A stretch of DNA of 64,000 nt. Origin: Saccharopolyspora sp. SCSIO 74807. GTDB taxonomy: Bacteria > Actinomycetota > Actinomycetes > Mycobacteriales > Pseudonocardiaceae. The stretch covers positions 2,606,501 to 2,670,500 of the forward strand of contig NZ_CP146100.1 of NCBI RefSeq assembly GCF_037023755.1, read 5' to 3'. The translations under genes and the position numbers were made by a program. Numbering within the stretch: position 1 is the stretch's first letter; every line of letters starts with the position of its first letter. The notes below the pieces were generated by a model. It did not search any database, was not told the DNA's origin, and saw only the letters and a program-made list of their open reading frames with translations. This document shows positions 3,391-17,336 of the stretch, in pieces.

Positions 3391-4470
3391 GTGAGTCTCA
3401 CCCTCGGAATCGTCGGGCTGCCCAACGTCGGCAAGTCCACCCTGTTCAACGCGCTGACCAGCAACGACGCGCTCGCCGCGAACTACCCGTTCGCGACCAT
3501 CGAGCCGAACGTGGGCGTGGTGCCGTTGCCCGACGGCCGCCTCGGCGAACTCGCCGGGATGTTCTCCTCCGAGAAGGTGGTGCCCGCCACCGTCTCGTTC
3601 GTGGACATCGCGGGCATCGTCAAGGGCGCGTCCGAAGGCCAGGGGCTGGGCAACAAGTTCCTCGCGAACATCCGCGAGGCGGACGCGATCTGCCAGGTCA
3701 TCCGCGTCTTCGACGACAGCGACGTGGTGCACGTGGACGGCGACGTGAACCCGGCCGATGACATCGAAACGATCAACACCGAGCTGATCCTCGCCGATAT
3801 CCAGACGCTGGAGAAGGCGCTGCCCCGGCTGGAGAAGGAAGCCCGCACCCGCAAGGACAAGCGCCCCGCGCTGGATGCGGTGTACGAGGCCAAGGAGATC
3901 CTCGACGGTGGCACCACCCTGTTCGCCGCGAACAAGGGCACCGAGGTGCCCGAGCTGCGCGAGCTGAACCTGCTCACCACCAAGCCCTTCCTGTACGTGT
4001 TCAACGCCGATGAGGGCGTGCTGGCCGACGAGCAGCGCAAGCAGCAGTTGCGCGACCTGGTGGCGCCCGCCGACGCGGTGTTCCTGGACGCCAAGGTCGA
4101 ATCCGAACTGATCGAACTGGACGAGGAATCCGCCCGCGAGCTGCTGGAGTCCGTCGGGCAGCCGGAGCCGGGCCTGAATGCGCTGGCCCACGCCGGGTTC
4201 CACACCTTGGGCCTGCAGACTTATCTGACCGCCGGGCCGAAGGAGGCCCGCGCCTGGACGATTCCGCAGGGCGCCACCGCTCCGCAGGCGGCCGGGGTGA
4301 TCCACACCGATTTCGAACGCGGTTTCATCAAGGCCGAGATCGTGTCCTACCCGGACCTGATCGAGGCCGGTTCCATGCAGGCGGCCCGCTCGGCGGGCAA
4401 GGTCCGGATGGAAGGCAAGGAGTACATCATGTCCGACGGCGACGTGGTGGAGTTCCGCTTCAACGTGTAG
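3391..4470 (+). CDS. ychF: Redox-regulated ATPase YchF (Obg-family)
   Basis: 359 aa, the normal length for YchF/OLA1. The P-loop is GLPNVGKST (residues ~8-16); the Obg-type switch follows (TIEPNVGVV); the G4 position reads FNADE, the NxxE form linked to ATP rather than GTP preference. A C-terminal TGS domain ends in FRFNV. Start GTG 3391 gives the canonical MSLTLGIVG beginning. The last 17 coding bases (4452-4468) are the left copy of the direct repeat bounding the downstream element. The present TAG stop is supplied by the element; the displaced chromosomal copy at 14728 continues into TGA. Protein sequence is unaffected. Confidence 0.96.
   Translation: MSLTLGIVGLPNVGKSTLFNALTSNDALAANYPFATIEPNVGVVPLPDGRLGELAGMFSSEKVVPATVSFVDIAGIVKGASEGQGLGNKFLANIREADAICQVIRVFDDSDVVHVDGDVNPADDIETINTELILADIQTLEKALPRLEKEARTRKDKRPALDAVYEAKEILDGGTTLFAANKGTEVPELRELNLLTTKPFLYVFNADEGVLADEQRKQQLRDLVAPADAVFLDAKVESELIELDEESARELLESVGQPEPGLNALAHAGFHTLGLQTYLTAGPKEARAWTIPQGATAPQAAGVIHTDFERGFIKAEIVSYPDLIEAGSMQAARSAGKVRMEGKEYIMSDGDVVEFRFNV
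4452..4468 (+). repeat. attL core, 17-bp direct repeat
   Basis: GTTCCGCTTCAACGTGT, identical to 14728-14744. It forms the last codons of ychF. The next base differs (A here, G at the right copy), which fixes the limit of identity. The core keeps the reading frame, so integration preserves ychF. Confidence 0.93.
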
Positions 4471-4533
4471 CGAAATATCGGCGAGCTTATACCGCTCCTG
4501 GTGAACAAAGTCAAACTCGCTGTTCAGTAAATG

Positions 4534-4582
4534 GGAGCCCGCTCTGACGTACCCGGTATGTCATGGCGGGTTCCTGTTTTTG
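4534..4582 (+). terminator. Strong hairpin terminator at the left end of the element
   Basis: Two stacked stems: GGAGCCCGC (4534-4542) pairs with GCGGGTTCC (4566-4574, one G-U). Inside it TGACGTAC pairs with GTATGTCA (one G-U) around a CCG loop. A TGTTTTTG tract follows at 4575-4582, as in an intrinsic terminator. It lies 64 bases after the ychF stop, inside the element, so it would end ychF transcription and insulate the element. Confidence 0.75.
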
Positions 4583-4591
4583 CTCGGGATG

Positions 4592-4599
4592 GTGCTGAC
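4592..4599 (+). other. Candidate integrase arm-type site, left arm
   Basis: GTGCTGAC, the same 8 bases found twice next to the right end (14649-14656 and 14670-14677). Its location 124 bases inside the left core fits an arm-type recombinase or excisionase site. An 8-mer alone is weak evidence. Confidence 0.35.
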
Positions 4600-4682
4600 T
4601 TGGTGATGAGTTCGCAAGCTAGATCAAGTCCTCAAAGGACGTTCCAGTAGCCCGGCATCCAACGCTGTGGCGGCCGGGGCGA

Positions 4683-4874
4683 CTACGGCCTTTGGCGCTT
4701 GGAGTGCTCCCGTAGCTGCCGCTTCGAGTCCTCAAGGTCGAAGCGGCCTTGCCCGCCTGGCGTGTAGAACTCTGGCTCCAAGATTCCGGCCTGCACGTAC
4801 CGCGCCACGGAGCGGCGCGAGATACCTAGCTCATCCGCGAGTTGGCTGGACGTGAGCAGCTTTGGCCTGGGCAC
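4683..4874 (-). CDS. Small BldC/MerR-type helix-turn-helix protein
   Basis: 63 aa from GTG 4874; a TTG at 4901 is an alternative start. The core LLTSSQLADELGISRRSVARYVQAGIL followed by GGQGRFDLED is the helix-turn-helix plus wing of BldC/excisionase-like MerR relatives (family pattern: start-helix, turn, recognition helix, then G-x-x-R-F). The C-terminus is basic (KRQLREHSKRQRP). It is divergent from the gene at 4931. Direct repeats CTCAGTTG at 4907-4914 and 4947-4954 lie between them and could be its operator. It may act as element regulator or second recombination directionality factor. Confidence 0.65.
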   Translation of the reverse strand: MPRPKLLTSSQLADELGISRRSVARYVQAGILEPEFYTPGGQGRFDLEDSKRQLREHSKRQRP

Positions 4875-4930
4875 GGCCCGAAAGTGGCACGAATGGCGCA
4901 ACTTGTCTCAGTTGCTGACTCAGATGCGCT

Positions 4931-5203
4931 ATGGTGGCCCATATGGCTCAGTTGTCCCAGTTTCCCATGGTCGTGATCGACGGCCGGGAATGGTGGGCGT
5001 GTCCCGCCAAGGGCGCGGACTGCGGACGGTCCCTCGTGGACTTCGGGTCATGGGGCCTGGATGCCCTCGAACTCCATGTGCAGCGAGAGCACCCCGAATG
5101 GTGGTGGGCACAGCAGCGTGCCTCTGTGGCTGCCCGTCCCCGTAACCAGCTTCGAGACAGTGCCCATTCCGTGGAGGCGCACAACAGCGAACGAGCAAGC
5201 TAA
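4931..5203 (+). CDS. Small hypothetical protein with zinc-finger-like Cys/His pattern
   Basis: 90 aa from ATG 4931; ATG codons at 4943 and 4967 are possible shorter starts and no clear ribosome-binding site decides. It contains WACPAKGADCGRSL and then LHVQREHPEW, giving C-x5-C and H-x4-H, which looks like a metal-binding finger. The C-terminus is polar and probably disordered. I do not recognise the family. It lies in the element, divergent from the HTH gene, and is followed by a 10-bp hairpin at 5226-5249. Confidence 0.6.
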   Translation: MVAHMAQLSQFPMVVIDGREWWACPAKGADCGRSLVDFGSWGLDALELHVQREHPEWWWAQQRASVAARPRNQLRDSAHSVEAHNSERAS

Positions 5204-5225
5204 AGCCGCATAGCGCACCGATACA

Positions 5226-5249
5226 CATCACTCGGCTGACCGGGTGATG
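5226..5249 (+). terminator. Hairpin after the small finger gene
   Basis: CATCACTCGG pairs with CCGGGTGATG (10 bp, one G-U) around the loop CTGA, 22 bases after the stop at 5203. No T tract follows, so factor-independent termination is uncertain. Confidence 0.45.
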
Positions 5250-5291
5250 CGTAGTTCTACGCTCCCTGCCACATACCAGGTTCGATACAGT

Positions 5292-5323
5292 CTCCCCTGA
5301 TCAACGCGCAGTGATCAGGGGAG
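5292..5323 (+). promoter_or_regulatory. Perfect 12-bp palindrome covering the ribosome-binding site
   Basis: CTCCCCTGATCA (5292-5303) and TGATCAGGGGAG (5312-5323), loop of 8 bases. The right arm contains the GGGGAGG Shine-Dalgarno for GTG 5331. In RNA the hairpin would hide the ribosome-binding site; in DNA it would be a typical dimer operator. Confidence 0.6.
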
Positions 5324-5330
5324 GAAGCGC

Positions 5331-5606
5331 GTGAACGTCCGTGTCGATCCGGAGACGCTAGCTGCCCTGGCCGGTGAACTCGAACAGTCCAGCAGCAAGC
5401 TTGCCCACGCACAGCCCGCGCCAGAAGCCGATGCAGGTCCGTCCGGTCCGGCCGTGAACGAGACCCTGGCTGAACTCATGCGCGCCGCCGCAGGTCTTGC
5501 CGAGGAAACCGCCAAGACCGCCGATGCGCTGCACTCCGGCAAGGCGGTCTACCTCGACACTGACGCGGCCAACGCAGATCAGATCAACCAGATCCGTCCG
5601 CGCTGA
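5331..5606 (+). CDS. EspC/DUF2580-like type VII secretion-associated protein
   Basis: 91 aa from GTG 5331 with SD GGGGAGG inside the palindrome. The opening VDPETLAALAGELEQSSSKL and the overall plan (one amphipathic hairpin, short Ala/Pro linker, second helix) resemble the small EspC/WXG100-superfamily proteins exported by ESX systems. There is no WXG in this protein; the partner encoded 21 bases downstream has one. Inference: partner or co-secreted chaperone of the hydrolase at 5628. No ESX core component (EccC, EccB, EccD) is in the window, so any export would use a chromosomal machine elsewhere. Confidence 0.6.
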   Translation: MNVRVDPETLAALAGELEQSSSKLAHAQPAPEADAGPSGPAVNETLAELMRAAAGLAEETAKTADALHSGKAVYLDTDAANADQINQIRPR

Positions 5607-5627
5607 GCACCGGGGAGCGCAGTACAC

Positions 5628-7340
5628 ATGCCGCTGAATATCTTCGTGTCCGGTGACCCTGGGTCGGTCCGGGCAACAGCCGAAGCAGTCCGTCAGCTCG
5701 CAACCGGGGTTGAAGACAACGCGACCGGTTGGCACCAGACCCGCAGTCGCTCAGAAGCCGATTGGGAAGGGCAAGCGGGCGATGGCTTCCGAGCGAAAGC
5801 AGGCACCACAGCCCGAGACGCTGACGCTCTCGATCAGTTGTTCCTTGGCATCAATCGGGCGCTGACCGCGTTTGCGGACGATTTGACGACCGTCAAGGCG
5901 CGTATGGACCAAGCGCGACAGGTTGGAACCGGCGGCGGTCTGAAGATGATGGGAAGCACGCTCATCCTCGAACCTGGTCCGATGCCGTTGCCTCCAGACG
6001 AGAACAAGCGCCAGCAAGCCGCGTATAAAGAAGCTCGCGAAACCATCGAGCAAGCGCGGCGCATGGAGAAGACAGCCCACGAACGTCTGAATGCGGCGCT
6101 GAAAGCCAATGCTAACGGACTCGGACACATCAGCAGTGCCGGGACTTGGGCACAGGCTGCCGCAGCGGCAACTAGCCCTGCCGCTATGGCTCTAGCCAAG
6201 GCGGCAACAGTGATGGACGATCGCGCGGTCAATGCGACTAAAGGGATGTTCGAGAAGGCGGCTGCGACGGGTCCTGCCGCTGTTGGTGGCTTGTGGGGTT
6301 CGATGACCAGTGCCCAACGCGCCGACCTGATGGACCGATACCCGCACATGGTCGGCAACACCAACGGCATTCCCTCAGCCACGCGCGATGTTGCCAACCG
6401 CTCCATCCTCGCATCACAGCGCCAAGCGATCTCTGGAAAGATCAGCGCGCTTCGGAACGAGATGCGTGAAGATTTTGAACGTCATGGGCACAGTGACACG
6501 GCAAAGGGTAAGCAGATCAACGAGCTGAGTGACGCACTCAGCGGTATCGATTCCTTGCAGGGCAAGCTGGGCACATCGGCCGATGCAAGCAATTACTACT
6601 TGCTCGGTATCGACTCGACAGCCGAACATCGCGGACAAGCCATCATCGCCAACGGTAACCCGGACCACGCTGACAATACGATGACCCTTGTTCCAGGTAC
6701 ATTCAGCGATCTCGGCGACGCCACCGACTACGTCGAACAGAACGACAAGGTGTTGGACCGAGCCAACGAGCTGTCGGGTGGCAAGAACGCTGCGATCACC
6801 TGGGCAGACTACGAGTCTCCCAACCACTTGTTGCCCAATGCAGCGTTCAGCGGCTACGCGGAGAATGCGCATGGCGATCTCTCGAATTTCCAAGAGGGCC
6901 TTCGAGTCACCCACGAAGGCGAGACACCTTCACACAACACGTTGGTTGGCCACAGCTACGGTTCAACGGTGGCCGGGGAGGCCGCGGCGAACGGCGGGTC
7001 GCACGCAGATGACGTCGTGTTCCTCGGTAGTCCCGGTGTCGGTGTCGACGACGCCAGCGAGCTAGGAGTACCCAGCGACCACGTATGGGCAGCGAAGTCG
7101 GAAAGCGACGTCATCGACTGGACTCCGTCCACGAACCCTCTCGACTGGGGACCAACTGTTTTCGGTGGTACCGACCATGCACGTTACGGCGTCGACCCCA
7201 CCGACCCGACTTTCGGTGGACAGGTGATGCCGACAGATCCGAACGGCGGGCATGGCGACTACTGGGACAAGGCGCCTTCGCGTGAGAGCATGGCGCGGAT
7301 CATGACGGGCACGAACGGCGGAGGAGCAGCAGCACCGTGA
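5628..7340 (+). CDS. WXG100-like N-terminus fused to alpha/beta hydrolase (DUF1023)
   Basis: 570 aa. Residues 1-~105 form a helical WXG-like domain with DWEGQAGDGFR (WxG near residue 46). Residues ~110-300 are Ala-rich helices. Residues ~320-570 are an alpha/beta hydrolase of DUF1023 type with nucleophile elbow GHSYGS (Ser443), a preceding HEGETPSHNTLV strand, and later GTDHARYG that could supply the catalytic His. Such fusions in actinobacteria are typically exported type VII substrates. Substrate unknown; lipase, esterase or toxin activity are all possible. It follows the EspC-like gene by 21 bases and overlaps the next gene by one base (TGATG), suggesting one transcript. Confidence 0.75.
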   Translation: MPLNIFVSGDPGSVRATAEAVRQLATGVEDNATGWHQTRSRSEADWEGQAGDGFRAKAGTTARDADALDQLFLGINRALTAFADDLTTVKARMDQARQVGTGGGLKMMGSTLILEPGPMPLPPDENKRQQAAYKEARETIEQARRMEKTAHERLNAALKANANGLGHISSAGTWAQAAAAATSPAAMALAKAATVMDDRAVNATKGMFEKAAATGPAAVGGLWGSMTSAQRADLMDRYPHMVGNTNGIPSATRDVANRSILASQRQAISGKISALRNEMREDFERHGHSDTAKGKQINELSDALSGIDSLQGKLGTSADASNYYLLGIDSTAEHRGQAIIANGNPDHADNTMTLVPGTFSDLGDATDYVEQNDKVLDRANELSGGKNAAITWADYESPNHLLPNAAFSGYAENAHGDLSNFQEGLRVTHEGETPSHNTLVGHSYGSTVAGEAAANGGSHADDVVFLGSPGVGVDDASELGVPSDHVWAAKSESDVIDWTPSTNPLDWGPTVFGGTDHARYGVDPTDPTFGGQVMPTDPNGGHGDYWDKAPSRESMARIMTGTNGGGAAAP

Positions 7341-7684
7341 TGCCGACAGAGAACCAAGCCGATCAAGGCATCAAATACAAACCGCTACGGATCACGGGCA
7401 TCGTAGTCGGTGGGCTAATCATGGCGCTCAGCTTGGTCGGCTGGTTCCCCTACCTCGGTGCGTCGCTGACCGGATTCGATCCTGGTGACTCCGGCCCCGG
7501 CGTGACAAACCAACAGCTCATCGGCATGTTTTTCGCGCTATGGATTGTGCCGTGGCTGGTCGGGTTGGTGCTTGTTCTGGTCGCCATCACTGGATGGCTG
7601 CGCCGCACGCTCTGGGCATTGCTCGGATTGACAGGTGTCATGCTCTCTGTTTCGCTAGTCACTTATCTGGTCGGGACCGCCTAG
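7340..7684 (+). CDS. Small three-helix membrane protein, possible immunity partner
   Basis: 114 aa with three hydrophobic segments (around ITGIVVGGLIMALSLVGW, FALWIVPWLVGLVLVLVAI and WALLGLTGVMLSVSLVTYL). ATG 7340 overlaps the stop of the hydrolase gene (TGATG), so translation is coupled. By position it may protect the host from, or anchor, the hydrolase; that is inference from gene order only. Its last 30 bases overlap the convergent gene at 7655. No family recognised. Confidence 0.65.
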   Translation: MPTENQADQGIKYKPLRITGIVVGGLIMALSLVGWFPYLGASLTGFDPGDSGPGVTNQQLIGMFFALWIVPWLVGLVLVLVAITGWLRRTLWALLGLTGVMLSVSLVTYLVGTA

Positions 7685-8404
7685 ATTCGAGTGCTGCGAC
7701 TCATCCCTTATCGGTTGCAAGCCATCCCTTATATGCTTCTTCATCATATCGACCATCCACTCCCAGCGATCAGGGTACGGTAATTCCACCAAGAATCCAT
7801 GGTTACACAGGTCGCCGTCACTATTGCGGCACCACTGCACGCCAGCAAGGTCAGTGAACTGAATCTCAATACCACGATGGGCAATCAAGCTACAGAAACT
7901 TTCAAAGCACGCACCTTTCAGTCGTTCGATCTCGTGCCCGAATTCTTCTTCGTGTTCAAGGTGGTCCATTCCGAGCGATGACAGAACTTCAGCGAAAAGA
8001 TCGTAAGAGTAGGCTCTTGCCCACTCGGTCGCACTGCGGTACCTGACCTCCTTGGCCTCGTTGGAGGGCACCACAACAGCTTCCAAGGTGTCCGGCCTGG
8101 TTCGAGTAGTTAACCGACAGGATAGGCCGAACACTGGAAGATTGCTAGCATTCAAGTAATTTACATATAATTCGCTCGCGACAGAATCTCCGCGATGCTC
8201 GATCCAAGCAGCTACTTTCGAAGCCTGCTCGCTCTTATCTTTCTCGTTACGTTCTTCCTGCGCATCGAGCGCAATCTGTGCTTGAGTTCTAGCCGCTCTC
8301 GCACTCCAGTGCGAGTTGTATGCCGTCCAGCTAGTAAAGATCAGAGCGCAGGACGCGACGATAGCCGATACCCAAGACGGTAGGTTTCCCAGCCAATCAG
8401 TCAC
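7655..8404 (-). CDS. Hypothetical single-pass membrane protein
   Basis: 249 aa from GTG 8404. One N-terminal membrane segment (WVSAIVASCALIFTSWTAY), then a charged coiled-coil stretch (about residues 30-65), then a cytosolic-looking domain ending with the motif IQFTDLAGVQWCRNSDG. That motif resembles the FTDxxGxxWxRDxxG signature common at the end of uncharacterised actinobacterial membrane proteins of mobile regions. Function unknown. It lies 18 bases after the gene at 8423 and probably shares its transcript. Confidence 0.65.
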   Translation of the reverse strand: MTDWLGNLPSWVSAIVASCALIFTSWTAYNSHWSARAARTQAQIALDAQEERNEKDKSEQASKVAAWIEHRGDSVASELYVNYLNASNLPVFGLSCRLTTRTRPDTLEAVVVPSNEAKEVRYRSATEWARAYSYDLFAEVLSSLGMDHLEHEEEFGHEIERLKGACFESFCSLIAHRGIEIQFTDLAGVQWCRNSDGDLCNHGFLVELPYPDRWEWMVDMMKKHIRDGLQPIRDESQHSNLGGPDQISD

Positions 8405-8422
8405 GTGATGATCGTAGCAGCG

Positions 8423-9010
8423 CTAGGAACCGAGTAGGTCGAAGTGGAACCCGATTGCCACGGCAAAGAACGCGAGCCATCGAGTCGTATTTGCATGTCG
8501 TCCGACTGTAAGCAGCTTGGATAGTATCCGCAATGACTGCCTAGTGACGTAGGGAATTGCAATTAAGAGGCCAACTGCGACGAACCCAACTAAAGGAATC
8601 GCAAGAAGAAGCAACAACGAAGACCTTGAGGAAACTTCATAGTAAAAAAGGAGCGCAAGAGGAAGCATGATCGCATAAACTACAAGAAACTCAACTAAGG
8701 CTGACTTGTTTTTCCCCTTGAGTCTCTGCGCCCAACTCTTGTACCCCTTAGCGGTTCTCTCTAGATTATCCGCGATTCGGAGCATCCGTTCCGGGCCGAT
8801 GAGGTCGAGCACTGCTGCCACACCGCCCGCGAATTGGAGAATCTTTCCGATTCGCGCCCACCACAGGAACGGAAGTCCCCACATAGCGAAGTCTTCAAGC
8901 TTTGCCCCGGACCCCCACAAGGTCCAGGCTTCGCAATAGTCCACTTCGACCAAGTTGCCTCCCAGGTTGAGAGGCAACTCTAGCGAATGATCAGTCTGCA
9001 AATGGCGCAT
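8423..9010 (-). CDS. Hypothetical multi-pass membrane protein
   Basis: 195 aa from ATG 9010. The N-terminal ~45 residues are polar or interfacial with several Trp. A weakly hydrophobic segment (residues ~57-73) is followed by LIGPERMLRIADNLERTAKGYKSW, a basic loop (KGKNKS), two adjacent membrane helices (about residues 105-125 and 130-150) and a last hydrophobic C-terminal helix. No known domain. Paired with 7655-8404, it may form a two-component membrane complex; no enzymatic motif supports more. Confidence 0.6.
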   Translation of the reverse strand: MRHLQTDHSLELPLNLGGNLVEVDYCEAWTLWGSGAKLEDFAMWGLPFLWWARIGKILQFAGGVAAVLDLIGPERMLRIADNLERTAKGYKSWAQRLKGKNKSALVEFLVVYAIMLPLALLFYYEVSSRSSLLLLLAIPLVGFVAVGLLIAIPYVTRQSLRILSKLLTVGRHANTTRWLAFFAVAIGFHFDLLGS

Positions 9011-9095
9011 ACCCTTGTTCCGTAATATGCAACAGATCGCCTTCTGACCTGTACACAGGATCGGGGGCGCTATACAGGCCGATCTCTGAGCACGC

Positions 9096-9113
9096 GGGGA
9101 GGACTCCCTCCCC
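9096..9113 (-). terminator. Hairpin after the zinc-binding gene 9119
   Basis: GGGGAGG (9096-9102) pairs with CCTCCCC (9107-9113), loop ACTC, just past the stop of the minus-strand gene at 9119. Likely end of the transcript covering 9119-9661; no T tract. Confidence 0.45.
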
Positions 9114-9118
9114 TGCCC

Positions 9119-9361
9119 TTAACGCTCCGACTTCTCTCGAAACACTCCTTCAACCTGCTCCACTGGAGGAGCCTCCATCCAAGAGGGCTTGAGACAGCCG
9201 CCATACTTACGTTGATGTGCCCTGAAAAGCTCCCAGCTAGACCACGAGACATGACATCGGGAACAGTGCTTGATGTCATCGCCAGTCCATCGAACGGCAC
9301 ACATGCGACAGCGATGCACACGCTCATTGACGCGCTGAGTTGGGTCCTGGATAAGTGGCAT
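9119..9361 (-). CDS. Small zinc-binding protein (FDXHR-like pattern)
   Basis: 80 aa from ATG 9361. The pattern CRMCAVRWTGDDIKHCSRCHV ... FRAHQRKYGGC (C-x2-C, HC-x2-CH, then F-x2-H-x-R and GC) resembles the small FDXHR-type putative zinc-binding proteins of actinobacteriophages and plasmids. The C-terminus is acidic and lacks structure. It lies 12 bases after the stop of 9374-9661, also Cys-rich, so the two are probably co-transcribed. Possible role: DNA or RNA binding or assembly with a nuclease; not shown by sequence. Confidence 0.6.
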   Translation of the reverse strand: MPLIQDPTQRVNERVHRCRMCAVRWTGDDIKHCSRCHVSWSSWELFRAHQRKYGGCLKPSWMEAPPVEQVEGVFREKSER

Positions 9362-9373
9362 ACTGAGTCTTTC

Positions 9374-9661
9374 TTAGCGTAAGCATTTGGCTTGGAAGTG
9401 CCATAGCCGTTCTTCTTGGTCGGACTTTTTATCGGAGTGAGAGACGTAGACCTCCGCGCAGTAGGGGCACTGCGATGTCTTCGGGTCTTGTTGGAACCGA
9501 CACATAGAGCACAGTCGCTCTCGCTTCCGTTTGCGGTACTCCTTTCCGCATCGGAGGCACTTCCGGATCGCTCGGCAATCATCACACTGAGACCGGCGGT
9601 TTCCGTGGGTATATATCTCCCGTCCGCAGAGGCAAAGCTTGGTAAGTGGTGGAGCTAGCAC
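9374..9661 (-). CDS. Small multi-zinc-knuckle protein
   Basis: 95 aa from GTG 9661 with SD AAGGGAGAA about 9 bases upstream. Three Cys modules in order: CLCG...CDDC, CLRCGKEY...CSMC, and CPYC followed by a His-containing stretch ending HFQAKC. A very basic linker (RKRKRER) lies between modules 2 and 3, suggesting nucleic-acid binding. Family not recognised. First gene of a two-gene minus-strand unit with 9119-9361. Confidence 0.6.
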   Translation of the reverse strand: MLAPPLTKLCLCGREIYTHGNRRSQCDDCRAIRKCLRCGKEYRKRKRERLCSMCRFQQDPKTSQCPYCAEVYVSHSDKKSDQEERLWHFQAKCLR

Positions 9662-9791
9662 AATGCTGGTTCTCCCTTCCTGGTCAGAGAATCCCTAAAT
9701 CCCTTCGAGATCTAAACTGGAGCGGTGGGCCTGGGTGGGTTTTTCGGGGTTTAGAGAATCTCTCAGGGCTTCTCAGAGCTTGATAGAGCAA

Positions 9792-9817
9792 GGGGACCGC
9801 CCACCTAGAGCGGCCCC
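9792..9817 (-). terminator. Hairpin terminator of the 9834-10983 operon
   Basis: GGGGACCGC (9792-9800) pairs with GCGGCCCC (9810-9817) with one bulged A, 17 bases beyond the stop of the minus-strand gene at 9834. On the minus strand the stem is followed by a short T-containing stretch. Confidence 0.5.
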
Positions 9818-9833
9818 CGAAGAGACGAGGTGA

Positions 9834-10040
9834 TTACCAGCGTCCACCTCGTCCGCGCTCTATTTCGACTCGAAGAAGATGCCCTGCCGATGCCTTCCTC
9901 TGCCGATCATCAACGAACCCCTGAGTTGGATCATGTGCGGGCTGACTTTCTTGGGAAGATTCTTCTTCCTCTGGAGCCGTCGTCTCCGACTTGCCGTCAC
10001 GGAGAAAACGGGCGAAGAAATCCTTGGGGTCCTCACTCAT
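9834..10040 (-). CDS. Small acidic hypothetical protein, coupled to 10037
   Basis: 68 aa. N-terminal motif MSEDPKDFFARFLRDGKSE is a likely amphipathic helix; the middle is acidic and Ser-rich (EEEESSQES), the end basic (ERGRGGRW). The start ATG shares four bases (ATGA, 10037-10040) with the stop of the upstream gene, so translation is coupled. Unknown function. Charge segregation suggests an adaptor or scaffold-like partner for the 253-aa protein. Confidence 0.6.
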   Translation of the reverse strand: MSEDPKDFFARFLRDGKSETTAPEEEESSQESQPAHDPTQGFVDDRQRKASAGHLLRVEIERGRGGRW

Positions 10041-10798
10041 GCTGCTTCCTTACCAACCGGATTACGTTCGGCGGCATCCGCCGGGTGAATCAGGTTCACT
10101 GGAATGTGGTTGTGAACCAACGTGACGAACGGATCGAGCGGGCTATAGGGGTTAATGCCCACCTGGTGACTCGCGGAGAGCTGCCTAGCTGCGTCCAAGT
10201 ACGCTTGCTGCGACGCAGGCTCTCCAAGCTGAAAGACAGCGATCCCAAATCCGTCTTGCTTGTTGGCAGTCAAGTACCCCAACGATCGAGAGACGCTGTT
10301 ATAAGCTCTCCAGTAGCGCCGCATTTCAGCGGCGGAGGTAGTTGCCTGGTTGAGGTTCTCGAAGTCCTCCGAACCCAGTTGCCAGGTGGACGTGATCTCC
10401 ATGTTGGGCAGCTTGCCTACGGCCTCACTGAACTTCGGCACCAGAGCATTGAAGTTAATGCAAAGCGCCTCAAAGATTCGGCCCTCATCAGCAAAGAGCG
10501 CATCAAAGAGATTTCGGAACTTAGCAGTCTGCATGTCCTGCTGGAAGTTCAAGTTGTCCCATGCAAGAACTTCCACCGCGTAGGCACGGGCAAGCTCATT
10601 GGCTGCTTCGGAAAACTCCTCCGCTGCTGCCTCCCTGAGACGCTTCTGAGCCCTGGGCACCGCACTACGGTCAGCGGCTGCCTTGGCGTAGGTGACAGCC
10701 TCAAGGAGGCGCGCTGAGGGTTCGATATCGGCTTCCCGGAGAATGTCCGGGATCTTCTGGAGGGTCTGGATCTGTGCTGCTTGCTGGATATCGGTCAT
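10037..10798 (-). CDS. Hypothetical helical protein, middle gene of coupled operon
   Basis: 253 aa from ATG 10798 with strong SD AGGAAAGGAA 6-8 bases upstream. Predominantly helical by composition: an Ala/Glu-rich N-terminal half, a central stretch with many aromatic residues (NLNFQQDMQTAKFRNLFDALF), and a C-terminal segment ending near HIPVNLIHP. No nucleotide-binding, membrane or catalytic motif seen. Overlaps both neighbours by ATGA. Not recognised; a structural or assembly role in the element is a guess. Confidence 0.6.
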   Translation of the reverse strand: MTDIQQAAQIQTLQKIPDILREADIEPSARLLEAVTYAKAAADRSAVPRAQKRLREAAAEEFSEAANELARAYAVEVLAWDNLNFQQDMQTAKFRNLFDALFADEGRIFEALCINFNALVPKFSEAVGKLPNMEITSTWQLGSEDFENLNQATTSAAEMRRYWRAYNSVSRSLGYLTANKQDGFGIAVFQLGEPASQQAYLDAARQLSASHQVGINPYSPLDPFVTLVHNHIPVNLIHPADAAERNPVGKEAA

Positions 10799-10983
10799 GA
10801 TGAGTTCCTTTCCTGGTCGTTCGGTACTGCGGTAGCTGAGCCGTACTCAGCAAGCCATTGGGCACGCTTACGCGCCTGTGACTCCCTCGCCCGCTTGTTC
10901 TTGCAGTGGCGGCAGCGAGCCGTTCCATATATCCAATACGTATTTGTAGGGGTGCGGGAGCACCCGCACCGGAAGGTATCCAT
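10795..10983 (-). CDS. Small Cys-rich protein, first gene of coupled operon
   Basis: 62 aa from ATG 10983, chosen because GGAG lies 7 bases upstream; a GTG nine codons earlier has no such site. Pattern FRCGCSRTPT ... RCRHCKNKRARESQARKRAQW: C-x-C, then C-x2-C, followed by a strongly basic helix, as in small zinc-binding DNA- or RNA-binding proteins. The stop overlaps the start of the 253-aa gene by ATGA. Function unknown. Confidence 0.6.
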   Translation of the reverse strand: MDTFRCGCSRTPTNTYWIYGTARCRHCKNKRARESQARKRAQWLAEYGSATAVPNDQERNSS

Positions 10984-11010
10984 GTTCACGCTCCTGTAGA
11001 TGGTCAGCAC

Positions 11011-11511
11011 TGGACAAATAGAGAAACCCCTTCCGGCCCGATGATCCGGAAGGGGCTGCCGTAGGAAGGTGAGATATCCTTACGGAGTCAGGACAGGCAC
11101 AGAAGTCCGGAATACACAGGGGCAAGGCCGCTAAAGGAGGAAACGCGGCTTTGCCTCCTGCGGAGCAGCGCAACAGCATGGGCTGCTCGCGCTCTATCCG
11201 GCCGTGTTCTCATCGGCCGGATATTTCACATAACCCAAGATTATTTGATTCAGAGTATTTCAACCGGCCTACGGCCGGAGATGCTACATTACTAGGAGTT
11301 AGTACTTAGATTGAGTATGACAACAGGACAACGGATTGGAAGACAGGTCCCCCTACCCCCAAAAAATCTCAGATAGAGCTGGGGTAGGAGAATCCACCTT
11401 CCGATCCGTGTCAGGGTGTCACCATGACAGGCAGGTATCCGGTGGCCGCATTCGAGCTAGCTCCTAGCTCTGGACTTCGAACAGGCCCAGCCTTACGGCT
11501 GTGACAGAGGC
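11011..11511. other. 500-bp noncoding region packed with hairpins
   Basis: No convincing gene. Successive inverted repeats: 11027-11036/11046-11055 (10 bp); 11121-11131/11145-11155 (11 bp, one G-U, loop containing AAAGGAGG); 11163-11169/11182-11188 (7 bp); 11195-11204/11214-11223 (10 bp); CCGGCC/GGCCGG around 11264-11278; and 11352-11359/11381-11388 (8 bp). Possibilities: replication or transfer origin, structured leader RNA for the minus-strand operon, or tandem terminators. Confidence 0.6.
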
Positions 11512-12552
11512 TCACCGCCCAGTGAGCTTGTCCCCAGAGGTATTCACCCTCCATAGGTATAGATTATTCGGACACTTTGGGTTCTGACCTGGAATTATCT
11601 GTGCCGCCAGCCATGTTCTCAGAACGTCAGGATCATCAGCTCCTGTAGCCTTCATGGCTCGCTGAGCATCTACCTTCATGCACAGCAACTCTTCCCACTC
11701 AGGCTGATCCAGGTAGGCTGGTAGCTCGGACCAATCGGTCTCATACTTGGATTCCCTTCCTGGCTCCGGAAGGCATCGCTGAATAGCTGGAGAAGTCTCA
11801 GGAGCGGTTGTGTCCCACCAGAAGGGTTCAAGAGCTGTCAGAGGATCTCGCGTACAGGTGAAGTAACGACGTTTGCGGTTGTCATCCCAGATCGTCCTGA
11901 AGCTTCCCTGTACTGCTGGAAGTTCGCCACGGGCTGTTCTGCCAACGTCGAGCGGAGGAGCAAGGAGATTATGGTCATCACGTTCCCGGTACCATTCTTC
12001 AACCCTACTCCTATCACGAGCAAACGGAAAACGATGTTGGGCGCCTGAATCTCGGTGATCATCATACGGCGGGAGCCCTTCAATTCCTAGCTCATTAGGG
12101 AGTGTCCAGACTGACCCTGACGGTATCCAGCTAGCTCCTTCGCGCAGGTGGTCGCCACGTTGAGTATGGCGATACTCGTGTGACCACCTCTGCGTGGCCT
12201 TCGTTCGTTCTACTTGCTCCTTCAGCGGCATCGGTTGGTATGCGCTCGGGGCAATATACCCCTCCTTGGTTTGTGGCGGTCGAGATACATTCGGTCTGCG
12301 AACGCGACAGGGATACTCCTCACCTGGTGGGTTATGCCAGGCTTGCCCTTGAGTTTCTGCTTTCTTGAATCCCTCCCTCTGCTGGTGATTTCTTGCACGA
12401 CTCTTAGCGCGATTGAGGTTGTCCAACTTCTTTTTGTGTTTTGGGCTACAGGTTCGTGGTGGGCGACCGCCCTTCGATGTATAGGAAAATGGCCGTCCGC
12501 ACGGGGGCCAGGCACAAACAGCACTCCTGATCTTGCTCTTAGTGGCGCCCAT
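11512..12552 (-). CDS. Hypothetical protein with N-terminal zinc finger, coupled to xis
   Basis: 346 aa from ATG 12552, which overlaps the xis stop by one base (TGATG). A GTG six codons upstream would also fit the frame. Residues ~13-35 read CAWPPCGRPF ... RPPRTCSPKHKKKL, the C-x4-C-G ... C-x3-H/K type finger seen in actinobacterial mobile-element and regulatory proteins, followed by a basic helix. The rest is rich in Arg, Trp and Pro with no recognised catalytic motif. Co-expression with xis suggests a role in excision, replication or regulation of the element; none is demonstrated. Confidence 0.65.
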   Translation of the reverse strand: MGATKSKIRSAVCAWPPCGRPFSYTSKGGRPPRTCSPKHKKKLDNLNRAKSRARNHQQREGFKKAETQGQAWHNPPGEEYPCRVRRPNVSRPPQTKEGYIAPSAYQPMPLKEQVERTKATQRWSHEYRHTQRGDHLREGASWIPSGSVWTLPNELGIEGLPPYDDHRDSGAQHRFPFARDRSRVEEWYRERDDHNLLAPPLDVGRTARGELPAVQGSFRTIWDDNRKRRYFTCTRDPLTALEPFWWDTTAPETSPAIQRCLPEPGRESKYETDWSELPAYLDQPEWEELLCMKVDAQRAMKATGADDPDVLRTWLAAQIIPGQNPKCPNNLYLWRVNTSGDKLTGR

Positions 12553-12740
12553 CAGTCGCCGGTCTCCCACTCCTGCGCCAAGCGCTCAACATCCCTCAAC
12601 CTGAACCTCAGCGCTCCGCTCGTTCCGCCACCGATACGGACTCCTTTGAGCTGCCACATTTTCCAGTTCTGATAGACGGTTTTTGGAGCCACACCCAGGT
12701 GTTCGGCCACGTCCTCCACGGTCATAAGTCGGCTGGTCAT
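12552..12740 (-). CDS. Excisionase-like MerR/AlpA-type HTH protein
   Basis: 62 aa from ATG 12740 with SD GGAGGAG 8 bases upstream. MTVEDVAEHLGVAPKTVYQNW is the helix-turn-helix of the AlpA/Xis family; it is followed by GVRIGGGTSGALRFRLRDVERLAQEW, the wing with R-F and an ending helix. These proteins act as recombination directionality factors for tyrosine integrases. Divergent from the regulator-integrase operon and translationally coupled to the 346-aa gene. Confidence 0.8.
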   Translation of the reverse strand: MTSRLMTVEDVAEHLGVAPKTVYQNWKMWQLKGVRIGGGTSGALRFRLRDVERLAQEWETGD

Positions 12741-12800
12741 TGCCTGTTCTCCTCCTCTACCTATCCGGGCGTGTCCCGGAGCTGCCCCCACCAGACATGC

Positions 12801-12858
12801 CCAACCTAGGGGTGTCAAGACGTGTGCGGTCGTTACTTCCATGCTTGACCAACCTAGG
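12801..12858. promoter_or_regulatory. Direct repeats CCAACCTAGG in the divergent control region
   Basis: CCAACCTAGG at 12801-12810 and again at 12849-12858, 48 bases apart, between the divergent xis and regulator-int transcripts. Each copy includes the palindrome CCTAGG. Likely operators for one of the three HTH proteins of the element. Confidence 0.5.
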
Positions 12859-12881
12859 TATGGCGGTCTACGGTGCGAGCC

Positions 12882-13433
12882 ATGGAGGAGGAGAACAGCC
12901 GCAGGCAGCCACCACGGGTAGGCATCGCACAAGATATTTGGCCCTGGCAGGTGAGCATGGAATGGCCGAAAGACGTAGACCAAGGAGGACCCTGGTATCT
13001 GGCAATTCGCCCCCACCCTGGGGCTAGCGACGAGGAGCTAGCCGGAGGGCTGTCCTCAACCGTGCTCAGGAAGCTGGACTTCAAGAAAGCTGCTGAGGAA
13101 TGGCGAGAGGTCTCAAAATCAGAAGGTTCCTTTGAGCTAACTCAAGCAATGCTGGATGAGGTCTCCTCTACGCTAAAGGATGCTTCGAAAGAAGGGGTCA
13201 CTGACGAGTATCTGTCGTTCTTGGCATACCTCTACGTTGAGTTTGTCCAACTGGGATTTCAGCCCGTGACAACGAACCTTGCAGAACTTGCCGGTAGGCG
13301 GCCGGAAACGATACGTGCCCACCTCAAATCCGCCCGAACTCAAGGACTTCTTACGGCTGTGAAGGGCAGAGCCGGAGGAAAGCTTACTGGTAAGGCTCAG
13401 GAGATTCTTGCTTCAATGAAGGATGAAAGCTAA
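12882..13433 (+). CDS. Winged-helix regulator upstream of the integrase
   Basis: 183 aa from ATG 12882; GTG 12873 is an alternative. The N-terminal ~85 residues have no recognised fold. Residues ~110-175 form a helix-turn-helix with wing: YLSFLAYLYVEFVQLG, then LAELAGRRPETIRAHLKSARTQGLLT and a basic wing. This arrangement is common in actinobacterial element genes just before the integrase. Stop TAA directly abuts the integrase ATG, so the two are one operon. Probable role: control of integration or lysogeny-like maintenance. Confidence 0.65.
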   Translation: MEEENSRRQPPRVGIAQDIWPWQVSMEWPKDVDQGGPWYLAIRPHPGASDEELAGGLSSTVLRKLDFKKAAEEWREVSKSEGSFELTQAMLDEVSSTLKDASKEGVTDEYLSFLAYLYVEFVQLGFQPVTTNLAELAGRRPETIRAHLKSARTQGLLTAVKGRAGGKLTGKAQEILASMKDES

Positions 13434-14645
13434 ATGGCTACTGTTTGGCAGAAGTGCAGAGATGGCTACCCGAAAAGAACTGATCCGCCGTGTGAGGGTC
13501 CGAAGTGCGGGCACCCTTGGACTGTCCGTTATCGGGAACCGGGTGGGCGGACTGCGAAGCAGCGTGAGAAGTCGTTCCCAAGGAAGAAGGAGGCAGATGC
13601 GTACGCCTCGAAGGTTGAGAACGACAAGAATGAAGGCGTCTACCTTGATCCGAAACGGGGAGCGATTACGCTTCGGGCCTGGGCCGAGCAATGGCTAGGA
13701 CAGATCATCGTAGGCGAGTCCACTCGGAGGAACTACGAAGGGTTCATTGAGAAGTGGCTAGTTCCGAATATTGGACGTAAGACGCTCTCGGGTCTTACCG
13801 CGTCGGACGTACAGAGCTTGGTAAACAAGATGCACCGCTCTGGACTGGCTGCTTCGACTATCAGCGACCGGCTTAATCCGCTACGAGCGATGATGCGGGC
13901 CGCCATTCGTGAGAAGAGGATTGCCGACAGCCCCTGTGAAGGGGTCACGTTGCCTCGCAGGGGGACCAGCGCGGTAGGTGAGGATGAGATCCCTACACTG
14001 GAGCAGGTGCACGCGATTGCGCGGAACATCAGCGGTCAGTATGCGCTGAGTATCTGGCTGATGGCGGGTGCTGGTCTCCGGATCAGTGAGGCGCTGGGCT
14101 TCTCGGTTGACTGCGACAGGGGAGACTTCCTGCGGTCGCGGCGGCAGGTTAGTTCCAAGGCCAATCAAGGTGATTGCCGGACACGGTTGGTCCCGCTGAA
14201 GCATCGGACGGAGGATGAGTACCGGGACGTTCCGCTACCGCCCTTCCTGTCCGCTGAGATCGAAGCTCATATTGATCAGTGGGGTGTGACAGATGTGGAA
14301 GGGTTTCAGGTTCTCTTTGCCCCACGTGAGCGAGGCAAAGGAACCATGCCTACCGCTACGACGTATGGCTACCACTGGCGGAAGGCTCTGGAGGCTGCTG
14401 GCCTGACCGTGTTGGTAGACGGGAAGGTGAAGCCCTTGTTCACCCCGCATTCCCTACGACACTTCTTCGCCTCGACTGCGCTTGGTGGGGGCGTGCCGCT
14501 GCTGGAGGTGTCCCGGTGGCTTGGGCACCGCTCGATCAAGGTCACGGCTGATACCTACGGGCACCTGACCCCGGACGCCCCGGAGAGGTTCCGGACGGTC
14601 ATGCAGGATGCTCTACGGCCAGCGCTCAAGGCAGTTGCGAGCTGA
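13434..14645 (+). CDS. int: Tyrosine recombinase / site-specific integrase
   Basis: 403 aa. Basic N-terminal arm-binding region (~1-75), SAM-like core-binding domain (~80-165) and catalytic domain with Arg216 (AGLRISEALG), HSLRH (His339, Arg342), GHRSIKV (His365) and nucleophile Tyr375 (TYGHL). All catalytic positions are intact, so the protein should be active. It ends 82 bases before the right core repeat, the usual placement next to the attachment site. The target, the 3' end of ychF, follows from the flanking repeats. Confidence 0.94.
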   Translation: MATVWQKCRDGYPKRTDPPCEGPKCGHPWTVRYREPGGRTAKQREKSFPRKKEADAYASKVENDKNEGVYLDPKRGAITLRAWAEQWLGQIIVGESTRRNYEGFIEKWLVPNIGRKTLSGLTASDVQSLVNKMHRSGLAASTISDRLNPLRAMMRAAIREKRIADSPCEGVTLPRRGTSAVGEDEIPTLEQVHAIARNISGQYALSIWLMAGAGLRISEALGFSVDCDRGDFLRSRRQVSSKANQGDCRTRLVPLKHRTEDEYRDVPLPPFLSAEIEAHIDQWGVTDVEGFQVLFAPRERGKGTMPTATTYGYHWRKALEAAGLTVLVDGKVKPLFTPHSLRHFFASTALGGGVPLLEVSRWLGHRSIKVTADTYGHLTPDAPERFRTVMQDALRPALKAVAS

Positions 14646-14647
14646 CA

Positions 14648-14680
14648 TGTGCTGACCCGTGCTGGTTCTGTGCTGACCCG
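14648..14680 (+). other. Candidate integrase arm-type sites, right arm
   Basis: TGTGCTGACCCG occurs at 14648-14659 and 14669-14680, exactly 21 bases apart (two helical turns), between int and the right core. The shared GTGCTGAC also occurs at 4592. Spacing and position fit arm sites bound by the integrase N-terminus. Confidence 0.5.
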
Positions 14681-14727
14681 GAAAGATCGACATCTCATCT
14701 TTGCAGGTCAGAGCATATGGGGTAGAT

Positions 14728-14744
14728 GTTCCGCTTCAACGTGT
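14728..14744 (+). repeat. attR core, 17-bp direct repeat
   Basis: Identical to the ychF 3' end at 4452-4468 and followed by GA, completing GTG TGA, the original ychF stop. It is the remnant of the uninterrupted chromosome and shows the insertion polarity. The 270 bases from here to 15014 hold no gene that I can support. Confidence 0.93.
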
Positions 14745-15107: not shown

Positions 15108-15303
15108 TCCGCGAATCCGCGCAGAAACCCGGCGTGGAGTTCCGGGTGAACTGCGGGAGGCGGTGATCAACCGCACCCGCGCGGGGCTGTCACTCGGCAT
15201 CGCGGTCGATCCGATCGACGCGCCACAGCGATCCGGCGGCGAGCACGGGCCCGAGCCGGCGCTACCGGGGCGGCGTCCGCCCGCGCGCCCGGACTGCGGA
15301 ATC

Positions 15304-16596: not shown

Positions 16597-16598
16597 AG

Positions 16599-17297: not shown

Positions 17298-17336
17298 AAA
17301 CCACCGCCATCCGGCGGCGCTGCTAGCGTGCCGAGC

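Follow-up and report, generated by a model that had tools for sequence, protein, structure and literature searches.

Integration adjoining ychF is known from the pneumococcal prophages PPH005 and PhiBM6001.4, but the Streptococcus site is an intergenic one of 26 bp, upstream of ychF, and not the coding 3′ end (available portions of PMC8637289 and PMC10383233). AICEs with tyrosine integrases are described as targeting mostly tRNA genes (excerpts of PMC3218068), and prophages of Mycobacterium abscessus carry phage-encoded ESX-secreted toxins, or PEST (partial texts of PMC10654092 and PMC8092301). Here we describe a 10.3-kb element at the 3′ end of ychF in a 64,000-nucleotide stretch (64 kb; the window) of the genome of Saccharopolyspora sp. 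SCSIO 74807. Its kind is already known, and it is the ychF 3′ site in actinobacteria for which we found no description in the open-licence PMC literature, where naming by locus tag, or island databases such as TIGER, could hide one; the site goes unmentioned in the available portions of PMC12884075, PMC12924846 and PMC6549336. Taken as a whole, the locus is, in our judgement with high probability, best explained as a site-specific element of phage ancestry that rebuilds the end of ychF, carries predicted type VII cargo and most likely spreads as a satellite or reduced prophage.

Boundaries of the element and its attachment site

A perfect 17-bp repeat, GTTCCGCTTCAACGTGT, bounds the element (Table 1), and an exact scan of the whole 6.7-Mb genome revealed these two copies only (reversed control, n = 0). 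The core reaches only the first base of the stop codon and the rest comes from the element, so integration does not alter YchF: the stop is TAG at the left, its final two bases being element-derived, versus TGA after the right copy, and the protein ends in ...EFRFNV in both cases. The GC content of the block is 53–64% compared with ~67–76% in the rest of the window, and the integrase gene stops 82 bp short of attR. The initial annotation was thus accurate on the repeat at the block ends, the lower GC content, the integrase adjoining the right copy and the swap from TGA to TAG that leaves the protein unaltered. Its statement that most actinobacterial elements target tRNA genes is supported for AICEs among the conjugative elements with tyrosine integrases (PMC3218068, in the part available). 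At this locus a tRNA gene is ruled out as the target, with none found in the 64-kb window or in eight integrase stretches that were scanned. These observations support block 4469–14744 as a site-specific integrative element whose attB is the ychF 3′ end and which leaves YchF intact. The tyrosine integrase would recombine attP with the 17-bp core formed by the last ychF codons, and excision by Int and the divergent HTH_17 protein, a presumed Xis, would restore the ychF site.

Table 1. Features of the element and its attachment site (positions in the window)
Feature	Position	Strand	Basis
ychF (redox-regulated ATPase/GTPase YchF), attB-bearing host gene	3394..4470	+	TIGR00092, 428 bits; Pfam YchF-GTPase_C
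attL core, 17 bp, GTTCCGCTTCAACGTGT	4452..4468	.	Repeat; 2 genome copies; identity step versus G003
Element-borne hairpin with T-rich tail, ~60 nt past ychF stop; candidate replacement terminator	4529..4579	+	−34 kcal/mol
Candidate left arm-type sites, GTGCTGA and a variant, GTGATGA, spaced by 11 bp	4592..4609	.	Family comparison
MerR/HTH_17-like DNA-binding protein, 72 aa	4683..4901	-	Excisionase and terminase-small-subunit PHROGs, over HTH
90-aa protein	4931..5203	+	ORF list, profile search
EspC/WXG100/PE-like partner, 91 aa, first cassette gene	5331..5606	+	Weak matches below cut-offs
Predicted type VII-secreted toxin/effector, 570 aa; N-terminal WXG100-like, C-terminal Abhydrolase_8	5628..7340	+	PF06259, 1.1e-28
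Hydrophobic protein (read by eye), 115 aa, candidate immunity protein	7337..7684	+	Overlaps toxin stop
249-aa protein, membrane-anchored (read by eye)	7655..8404	-	Homologue comparison
195-aa protein, membrane protein (read by eye)	8423..9010	-	Homologue comparison
Phage FDXHR zinc-binding protein, 80 aa	9119..9361	-	PF24071, 1.1e-10; phrog_2147
95-aa cysteine-rich protein	9374..9661	-	ORF list, profile searches
68-aa protein	9834..10040	-	ORF list, profile search
253-aa protein	10037..10798	-	Profile searches
71-aa cysteine-rich protein	10795..11010	-	Homologue comparison
346-aa orphan, cysteine-rich N-terminus	11512..12552	-	Genome and viral-contig search
HTH_17 excisionase-like protein, 63 aa, candidate Xis	12552..12743	-	Pfam, 6.2e-7; phrog_66
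Phage HTH (wHTH) DNA-binding protein, 183 aa, directly upstream of int	12882..13433	+	phrog_11473, 1.1e-45
Tyrosine integrase, 403 aa, single open frame	13434..14645	+	Phage_integrase, 8.1e-12; phrog_1, 3.7e-54
Candidate right arm-type sites GTGCTGA, GTGCTGG, GTGCTGA	14649..14676	.	Family comparison
attR core, 17 bp, then native stop TGA	14728..14744	.	Repeat position

Gene content

Phage kinship is seen in xis, wHTH, int, the FDXHR gene and two further genes. The integrase, Xis and wHTH frames are all open; the wHTH protein is 48–49% identical to its counterparts in Actinokineospora (L055) and the genome G013, and the candidate Xis is kept beside related integrases (38 tblastn matches in fetched loci, with overlapping loci counted repeatedly). 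The 249-aa protein has two homologues (27–30%) within a prophage region elsewhere in the host genome, the 195-aa protein has one (29%) within the G013 prophage at ychF, and the 71-aa protein has a weak one (45% over 51 aa) in a stretch of genome G054 that bears a related integrase. Among 390 genomes the 346-aa orphan was found in its own genome only, and neither it nor the 253-aa protein had a confirmed relative in viral contigs. No family match at E 0.01 was obtained for 6 of the 15 non-integrase ORFs in the libraries that each was given.

As initially annotated, no conjugation, replication or virion genes were recognised in searches of Pfam (all 16 listed ORFs), PHROGs (10), PADLOC (10) and NCBIfam (9). 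The sole ambiguity is the 72-aa HTH protein, whose HTH matched a terminase-small-subunit PHROG (2.6e-8) and an excisionase PHROG (6.4e-7) about equally; two PADLOC matches, the only ones, were taken as noise (E 0.002–0.01). Nowhere in the element was a gene recognised for a capsid, portal, terminase large subunit or tail, or for packaging or hijacking, and RepSA, TraB and FtsK had no match among the ORFs given to Pfam, a library that detects RepSA in the related genome G002.

The cargo beside attL, beginning 863 bp inside it, is predicted to be a three-gene type VII toxin cassette with putative toxin and immunity functions. Matches of the 91-aa partner to EspC, WXG100 and PE families are weak (E 5e-4 to 4e-3, below cut-offs), as is the WXG100 match of the 570-aa protein (4.8e-5, under the Pfam cut-off), for which a PDB search gave no match. 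Partner, toxin and 115-aa gene are co-conserved at two other loci (in G002 and G352), and the cassette also occurs at other chromosomal places without a window-type integrase. The host genome has two EccB loci, and the cassette would be expected to be exported through host ESX systems.

Comparison within Saccharopolyspora

We compared the genome (G000) with five others of the genus (G001 to G005), one of which (G003, another species) carries a degraded version of the element at its own ychF. Identity between the two rises from 87.39% in ychF to 99.87% over 4452–8300 (5 mismatches in 3,849), with the step at the repeat, while the first 400 bp past attR had no match. The G003 toxin cassette, 99.9% identical, sits within the pair of 17-mers along with the integrase end. 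A genome of the same species (G001) has only the left 3.2 kb (4452–7682, at ~98–99%) and lacks the integrase half; it retains the left edge of the element itself and a degenerate attR, and both copies (G003 and G001) show deletion. In G002 the ychF site holds a different, AICE-like element with a pSAM2-type RepSA and a GntR regulator, whose integrase shares 31% identity over 383 aa with that of the window and sits in opposite orientation at the other end of the element.

The remaining two genomes (G004 and G005) have one core copy in the fetched stretch, with one mismatch in G005, and no element of the window's family. G004, although a different species, provides the clearest empty site, an intact ychF ending in TGA with a chromosomal gene next. 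No match to the toxin cassette was found in the ychF regions of G002, G004 or G005. Relatives include the empty, TGA-ending ychF and the different cargo at the same site that the initial annotation had anticipated, and the absence of a window-family element from two of the five genomes contradicts the opposing possibility that all relatives carry the block. These comparisons show that the element was recently mobile and crossed between species.

The ychF 3′ end as a target across actinomycetes

A genome scan for relatives of the integrase covered the best 80 of 81 confirmed stretches. A census took in 82 loci where int is followed by ≥200 bp of sequence, counting the window and keeping duplicates (L057 and L124 are one locus). 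A ychF 3′ end was found within 300 bp past int at 21 of 33 loci at ≥55% identity and 12 of 20 at 50–55%, falling to 1 of 8 at 45–50%, 0 of 7 at 40–45% and 1 of 14 below 40%; the control frequency was 58 of 10,834 windows (320 bp each), a figure that counts the true sites. For the tree, 78 integrases that had no internal stop and spanned most of the query were reduced to 63 rows by dropping duplicates and loci cut just after int. All 27 ychF-flanked integrases fell within a single 40-row clade (support 98/98), with the window integrase grouping with L055 and G013 (97/95). The other 13 rows of the clade have no ychF end within 300 bp; eight (L053, L056, L058, L059, L062, L068, L071 and L078) have a ychF-end motif farther off, up to 8 kb, and five have none. 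Within 300 bp, a ychF end was absent for L064, L074, L079, L081, L085 and the 33–36% group except L116, whose integrase (best piece 33% identical) is outside the tree. The G053 integrase is directly followed by an open frame that, read by eye, resembles a transporter.

Both ends were seen in eight elements (G000, the window; G003, G013, L054, L066, L094, L116 and L119), and in all eight the final codon of ychF runs straight into a stop codon, left and right. Occupants of the site comprise a 49.6-kb prophage, islands of 3.7–10.3 kb with toxin or restriction genes among their cargo, elements in tandem, and an AICE-like element that has a different integrase. The prophage, in G013, spans 49,584 bp from ychF to attR and has a Phage_capsid gene; three islands of 7.1–10.3 kb (window, L054 and L119) have full-length integrases and differing cargo. 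Decay appears common, since the integrase is truncated or split in four of the eight (G003, L066, L094 and L116). Twelve of 13 IMG/VR contigs with integrases 52–63% identical (L119 to L131) measure 38.7–64.0 kb.

These data show that ychF is a regular target of one actinomycete integrase clade, prophages included, so that its initial description as an unusual attB stands as to attB but not as to a one-off. For actinomycetes this defines a conserved attachment site in a protein-coding gene, together with the integrase clade that uses it, and shows a single site occupied by prophages, by small islands and by an AICE-like element; as the host gene is rebuilt, the site is potentially usable for integration vectors. 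A broader reading, to which we give slightly less than even credence, is that the ychF 3′ end may be a long-standing actinomycete docking site, where one integrase clade is common to full prophages and small helper-dependent islands that trade cargo (type VII toxins, restriction-modification) and stack in tandem, each with a ready-made gene end (stop and terminator hairpin) that spares ychF.

Conserved end structures

Elements at the ychF site bring their own stop codon, a hairpin just within attL and GTGCTGA/G repeats. The window hairpin has a z-score of −5.5 as a hand-picked stretch and −4.7 for 4466–4600. Hairpins were present in all seven distinct left ends folded, with z-scores from −1.3 (L094) to −8.1 (G013) in a local test of 25 shuffles per sequence, which discriminates poorly because the native flank of G003, with a clear hairpin and T-run, scored just −0.7. 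A strict promoter/terminator consensus scan, from whose list the 4529 hairpin was absent, was uninformative. The hairpin that the element supplies would probably serve as a new terminator for ychF.

At least two copies of the arm motif occur in 33 of 35 family int-to-attR intervals, against a maximum of one in first-order Markov shuffles; all intervals had been selected for a ychF end, and near-identical pairs remain after two duplicates were dropped. Pairs spaced by 11 bp lie within attL in five of seven left ends (L054, L066 and G013; in L119 and the window variant motifs take part, the window having one exact and one variant motif). L119 has the variant GTGGTGA at this spacing at both ends, and no arm motif was found in the left end of L116. 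These repeats are probably used by Int as arm sites, left and right. The initial annotation did not name the toxin cassette beside attL, the attL hairpin or the arm-type repeats. The family is thus shown to have conserved end structures, and we suggest, as a simple rule to carry over to other families, that an integrase targeting the 3′ end of a gene may bring a substitute for that end.

Origin and mode of spread

The window element is a small island whose integrase is of phage type; it lacks a complete virion set and sits at an attachment site also used by prophages. It looks phage-derived and not conjugative, because the xis–wHTH–int module and some of the cargo have prophage relatives; in the lack of recognisable conjugation, replication and virion genes, spread as a phage satellite or reduced prophage is most likely. 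The element would most likely be moved by Int and Xis, with packaging presumably by a helper phage. How it moves had initially been left open; no transfer genes are recognised, as stated then, but these relatives narrow the question towards phage descent. A related account, possible though we doubt it, is that a temperate phage specific for ychF shed the genes for virions and replication and kept its integration module and lysogenic-conversion cargo, so that the element may excise but no longer spreads alone. The nearest integrase modules do include that of the capsid-bearing G013 element, the ORFs without family match would fit, and deletions in the G003 and G001 copies and the broken integrases of half the two-ended elements speak of decay. 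Against this, the window int, Xis and wHTH frames are open, a cross-species move at 99.87% identity was recent, and islands of 7.1–10.3 kb with full-length integrases carry different cargo.

Other explanations fare worse. There is a small chance that the toxin cassette is a resident locus beside ychF and the right part alone is mobile, as the integrase-less left portion in G001 and the cassettes at other chromosomal places might suggest; yet in G003 cassette and integrase end lie together between 17-mers, the ychF regions of G002, G004 and G005 lack the cassette, and G001 retains the left end of the element and a decayed attR. A remnant or mobilisable AICE that lost rep and tra is very improbable. 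Decay of AICEs to integrase remnants and cargo has been described (excerpts of PMC9513070) and an AICE-like element occupies the same site in G002, but its integrase differs in sequence, orientation and end, whereas xis, wHTH and int of the window match PHROGs and prophage copies; the reading was rejected on finding no rep or tra match among the Pfam-searched ORFs. That repeat and GC shift coincide by chance, or that the whole ychF region was exchanged, is scarcely credible. Exchange of flanking DNA by homologous recombination can likewise yield mosaic identity, but the jump in identity at the repeat (87% to 99.9%) and the unmatched right flank rule it out as the source of the G003 copy; a chance repeat, which the initial annotation had named as a possible objection, is rejected by the two-copy genome scan, and the same geometry recurs in other species.

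Comparison with known systems

Temperate prophages, exemplified by G013, share with the window element the xis–wHTH–int–attR module, the ychF 3′ attachment, the GTGCTG repeats and the attL hairpin; they differ in size, the window element having only 10.3 kb, and in the genes for capsid, portal, terminase large subunit and tail, none of which was recognised in it. AICEs such as pSAM2 resemble it in the accretion of elements at shared sites (available parts of PMC3218068 and PMC9513070), but they usually target tRNA genes, and the window has no RepSA or TraB, the G002 element alone being AICE-like. PICIs and candidate mycobacterial PICIs are likewise small integrase islands, some at prophage attachment sites and some with ESX-toxin cassettes, although the mycobacterial candidates are defined, in the accessible text of PMC10654092, by an integrase and a major capsid gene, the latter not recognised in the window. 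In cargo it resembles the PEST cassettes, which, as far as the excerpts of PMC10654092 and PMC8092301 go, combine a small WXG100-type partner, a large toxin with N-terminal WXG100 and an immunity gene; the candidate partner, predicted toxin and candidate immunity gene of the window would correspond to these, and both cassettes neighbour an attachment junction. The window cassette differs in its Pseudonocardiaceae host, its Abhydrolase_8 toxin C-terminus, its EspC/PE-like partner and its carrier, so that the toxin-next-to-att arrangement known from mycobacterial prophages is also seen in an island with no recognised virion genes.

The ychF 3′ end as attachment site

A perfect 17-bp repeat lies at 4452–4468 and 14728–14744, and scanning the complete 6,688,468-bp genome for exact copies found the 17-mer only at these two element ends (reversed control, 0 copies). 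GC content is 53–64% between the copies versus ~67–76% in the rest of the window. The left copy forms the 3′ end of ychF (TIGR00092, 428 bits), which reads ...GAG TTC CGC TTC AAC GTG TAG, and the native stop TGA, then chromosome, follows directly after the right copy. Because the core extends just one base, the T, into the stop codon, the stop is completed from either side and YchF is unchanged. The tyrosine integrase gene (int, 403 aa) stops 82 bp short of the right copy. The initial annotation had proposed an integrative element attached at the ychF 3′ end, with a repeat bounding a lower-GC block, an integrase beside the right copy and a TAG-for-TGA swap sparing the protein; each of these points was upheld, and the genome-wide count disposes of a chance repeat.

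The bioA and bioD genes lie directly right of the island (15304–17300) in this genome and in G001, another genome of the species. The ychF regions fetched from four further genomes of the genus (G002–G005) gave no DNA match to 15123–17312, which points to a second indel in the neighbourhood.

Occupancy of the site within the genus

Our within-genus comparison covered six genomes, the window's included. G003, from a different species, carries the element at the same ychF position. Its identity to the window is 87.39% in the part of ychF left of the repeat and rises to 99.87% (5 mismatches in 3,849 bp) over the repeat and onward to 8300. In the first 400 bp past the right copy the two genomes show no match, and their flanks realign further out. 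The identity step at the repeat, together with this unmatched stretch, shows that the att sites delimit the transfer. Deletions in the G003 copy have removed some of its middle and the first half of int. G001 keeps the left 3.2 kb at ~99% identity (98.95% over 4452–7600), with the right half replaced by ~900 bp and attR mutated.

An uninterrupted ychF and different cargo at the same site, both of which had been suggested as checks, were each found. G004 has a single core copy, TGA and a chromosomal gene immediately after; G005 has the core with one mismatch and no element of this family within the fetched stretch. In G002, two perfect copies of the same 17-mer enclose a different, 11.1-kb element. 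It encodes the replication initiator RepSA (434 bits), a GntR regulator and an oppositely oriented integrase that is 31% identical to the window's; two larger ORFs had no Pfam match. This occupant of the ychF site appears AICE-like (actinomycete integrative and conjugative element), RepSA and GntR being no proof of transfer.

An integrase clade with a shared target

Using an alignment of eight integrases as the query, we scanned 84,980 species genomes and IMG/VR; the genome scan loci are the best 80 of 81 confirmed stretches. The census took in 82 loci, among the matches listed, in which the sequence continued for 200 bp or more past the integrase, and counted as a ychF end FRFNV-stop within 300 bp past the integrase. 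Among the matches listed, a ychF end followed 21/33 integrases at ≥55% identity, 12/20 at 50–55%, 1/8 at 45–50%, 0/7 at 40–45% and 1/14 at <40%; the background was 58 of 10,834 windows, inflated by true sites. A maximum-likelihood tree of 63 integrases placed the 27 ychF-flanked rows, without exception, in one 40-row clade (support 98/98). Eight of the remaining 13 rows had the motif further off in the locus (within 8 kb, where some may be neighbours') and five lacked it. The window's integrase grouped with those of Actinokineospora enzanensis (L055) and G013, a genome with a ychF prophage (97/95). These patterns indicate that targeting of ychF is a trait of the integrase clade. The site that the initial annotation had singled out as noteworthy thus holds as an attB, now as the clade's shared dock.

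At the integrase N terminus (13434–13530), C8, C20, C25 and H27 are invariant in all eight aligned integrases, which suggests a zinc-binding domain, possibly arm-binding. Because a related integrase in genome G053 (locus L039, 47–50% identical) directly precedes a transporter-like open frame, relatives that fall outside the ychF clade may have other protein genes as their targets.

Further elements at ychF

Elements with both ends seen ranged from short islands to a prophage (see table). The G013 element has a Phage_capsid gene and is a prophage, tailed by our reading of its ORFs. L119 holds a Phage_capsid gene within its element and is a candidate satellite or prophage remnant. A DNA methylase occurs in the L054 and L094 elements, with a ResIII helicase as the next gene in L054. 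Methylase and a large helicase-type ORF (L054:4587–8656, L094:3366–7459) are common to these ychF islands of different Streptomyces, the ResIII match having been checked in L054 and the second L094 ORF likened by its start. L041 encodes a type I restriction HsdR subunit no more than 10 kb from the integrase, and extra downstream core copies occur at L047, L048 and L082. Decay is common, since the integrase is broken in half of the comparable elements.

Elements at ychF and toxin cassettes outside it (L, fetched loci; G, genomes)
Feature	Coordinates	Length	Ends	Integrase	DNA identity
Window element		10,276 bp	both seen	full length, one frame	
G003 element		6,261 bp	both seen	truncated or split	
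L054 element		7,099 bp	both seen	full length, one frame	
L066 element		7,721 bp, further core 3,327 bp on	both seen	truncated or split	
L094 element		9,009 bp	both seen	truncated or split	
L119 element		9,010 bp	both seen	full length, one frame	
L116 element		3,726 bp	both seen	truncated or split	
G013 element		49,584 bp	both seen	full length, one frame	
Cassette outside ychF (L213)	G002:C1:1735378-1737087				~72%
Cassette outside ychF (L214)	G352:C6:204055-205755				~72%

Hairpins and candidate arm-type repeats at the element ends

All seven distinct left ends folded had a hairpin within ~120 nt past the ychF stop. That of the window (4529–4579; −34 kcal/mol, then TGTTTTTG) gave z −5.5 as a hand-picked stretch and −4.7 when its left end was folded whole. 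Folded in the same way, L054, L066, L094, L119 and L116 gave −3.2 to −3.6. A local fold test scored G013 at −8.1, L094 at −1.3, four stretches after cores downstream of the integrase (L047, L048, L066, L082) at −2.5 to −8.1, and native flanks at −1.6 to +2.2; it discriminates poorly, because the G003 native flank, a plain hairpin with a T-run, scored just −0.7. A strict terminator scan did not list the window hairpin. We infer that the hairpin would act as a terminator and, with the stop codon, give ychF a replacement 3′ end; the hairpins could instead serve recombination. The idea of element-borne gene ends is testable.

Between the int stop and attR, at least two GTGCTGA/G motifs occur in 33 of 35 family intervals, totalling 105 copies versus a mean of 3.2 and a maximum of 10 in shuffles. 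Five of the seven left ends have motif pairs spaced 11 bp inside attL. The pairs are exact in L054 (where there are two), L066 and G013; that of the window combines GTGCTGA with a variant, GTGATGA. The L119 pair consists of two GTGGTGA. An identical pair lies on the right side of L119, and GTGCTGA/G occurs at neither end of that element. The L094 left end has four copies at other spacings and that of L116 none. The one-turn spacing and the matching L119 variants are what would be expected of sites recognised by the Int that each element encodes.

Gene content and probable mode of movement

The rightward-reading gene next to int encodes a phage HTH protein (phrog_11473, 1.1e-45), with an HTH_17 excisionase-like gene divergent from it, and this module recurs beside related integrases. 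Among the leftward-reading genes, one encodes a phage FDXHR zinc protein and two others have homologues in prophage regions. The gene at 7655–8404 has two homologues in the host's own prophage region (~1.55–1.60 Mb), and that at 8423–9010 has one within the G013 ychF prophage. The host region (C1 ~1554000–1603000; L191, L192, L215) has a Phage_capsid match and, by our reading, terminase-, portal- and tape measure-like ORFs; at its left end, one ORF begins with a stretch that resembles (35%) the WXG portion of the 570-aa protein encoded by the element.

The initial annotation, which recognised no conjugation, replication or virion genes, left the mode of movement open. Apart from an HTH-level match of 4683–4901 to a terminase small subunit PHROG, our analysis recognised no replication or packaging gene among the element ORFs. 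The evidence on movement now points to phages. We favour a phage-derived island that would integrate and excise at ychF through Int and Xis and spread with a helper phage. It may be a true satellite or a reduced prophage, and the sequence, which cannot separate the two, accommodates either. Conjugation of the window element is unlikely.

Three genes adjoin attL, encoding a 91-aa EspC/WXG/PE-like protein, a 570-aa WXG100–Abhydrolase_8 protein and a 115-aa protein. All three are kept together at two further chromosomal loci (see table), and no ychF-type integrase was found within the 17–18 kb fetched around them, which argues that the cassette travels from one context to another. Of 390 family genomes, 207 contain matches to the 570-aa protein at E ≤ 1e-20, and the host has two EccB loci. 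The 570-aa protein is presumably toxic, and the cassette would then include immunity.

Comparison with known systems

Insertion at a protein gene followed by its restoration is a known kind of integration (PMC12884075). In open-licence PMC literature, as far as its accessible text extends, we found no description of the ychF 3′ end as an attB in actinobacteria, and the site is apparently undescribed. For AICEs, different elements are known to accrete at one site (PMC9513070). Mycobacterium abscessus prophages and candidate phage-inducible chromosomal islands carry three-gene PEST (phage-encoded ESX-secreted toxin) cassettes, which in prophages adjoin the attachment junctions (PMC10654092, PMC8092301). 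As described there, these cassettes have the same three-gene plan as the genes on the attL side of the element.
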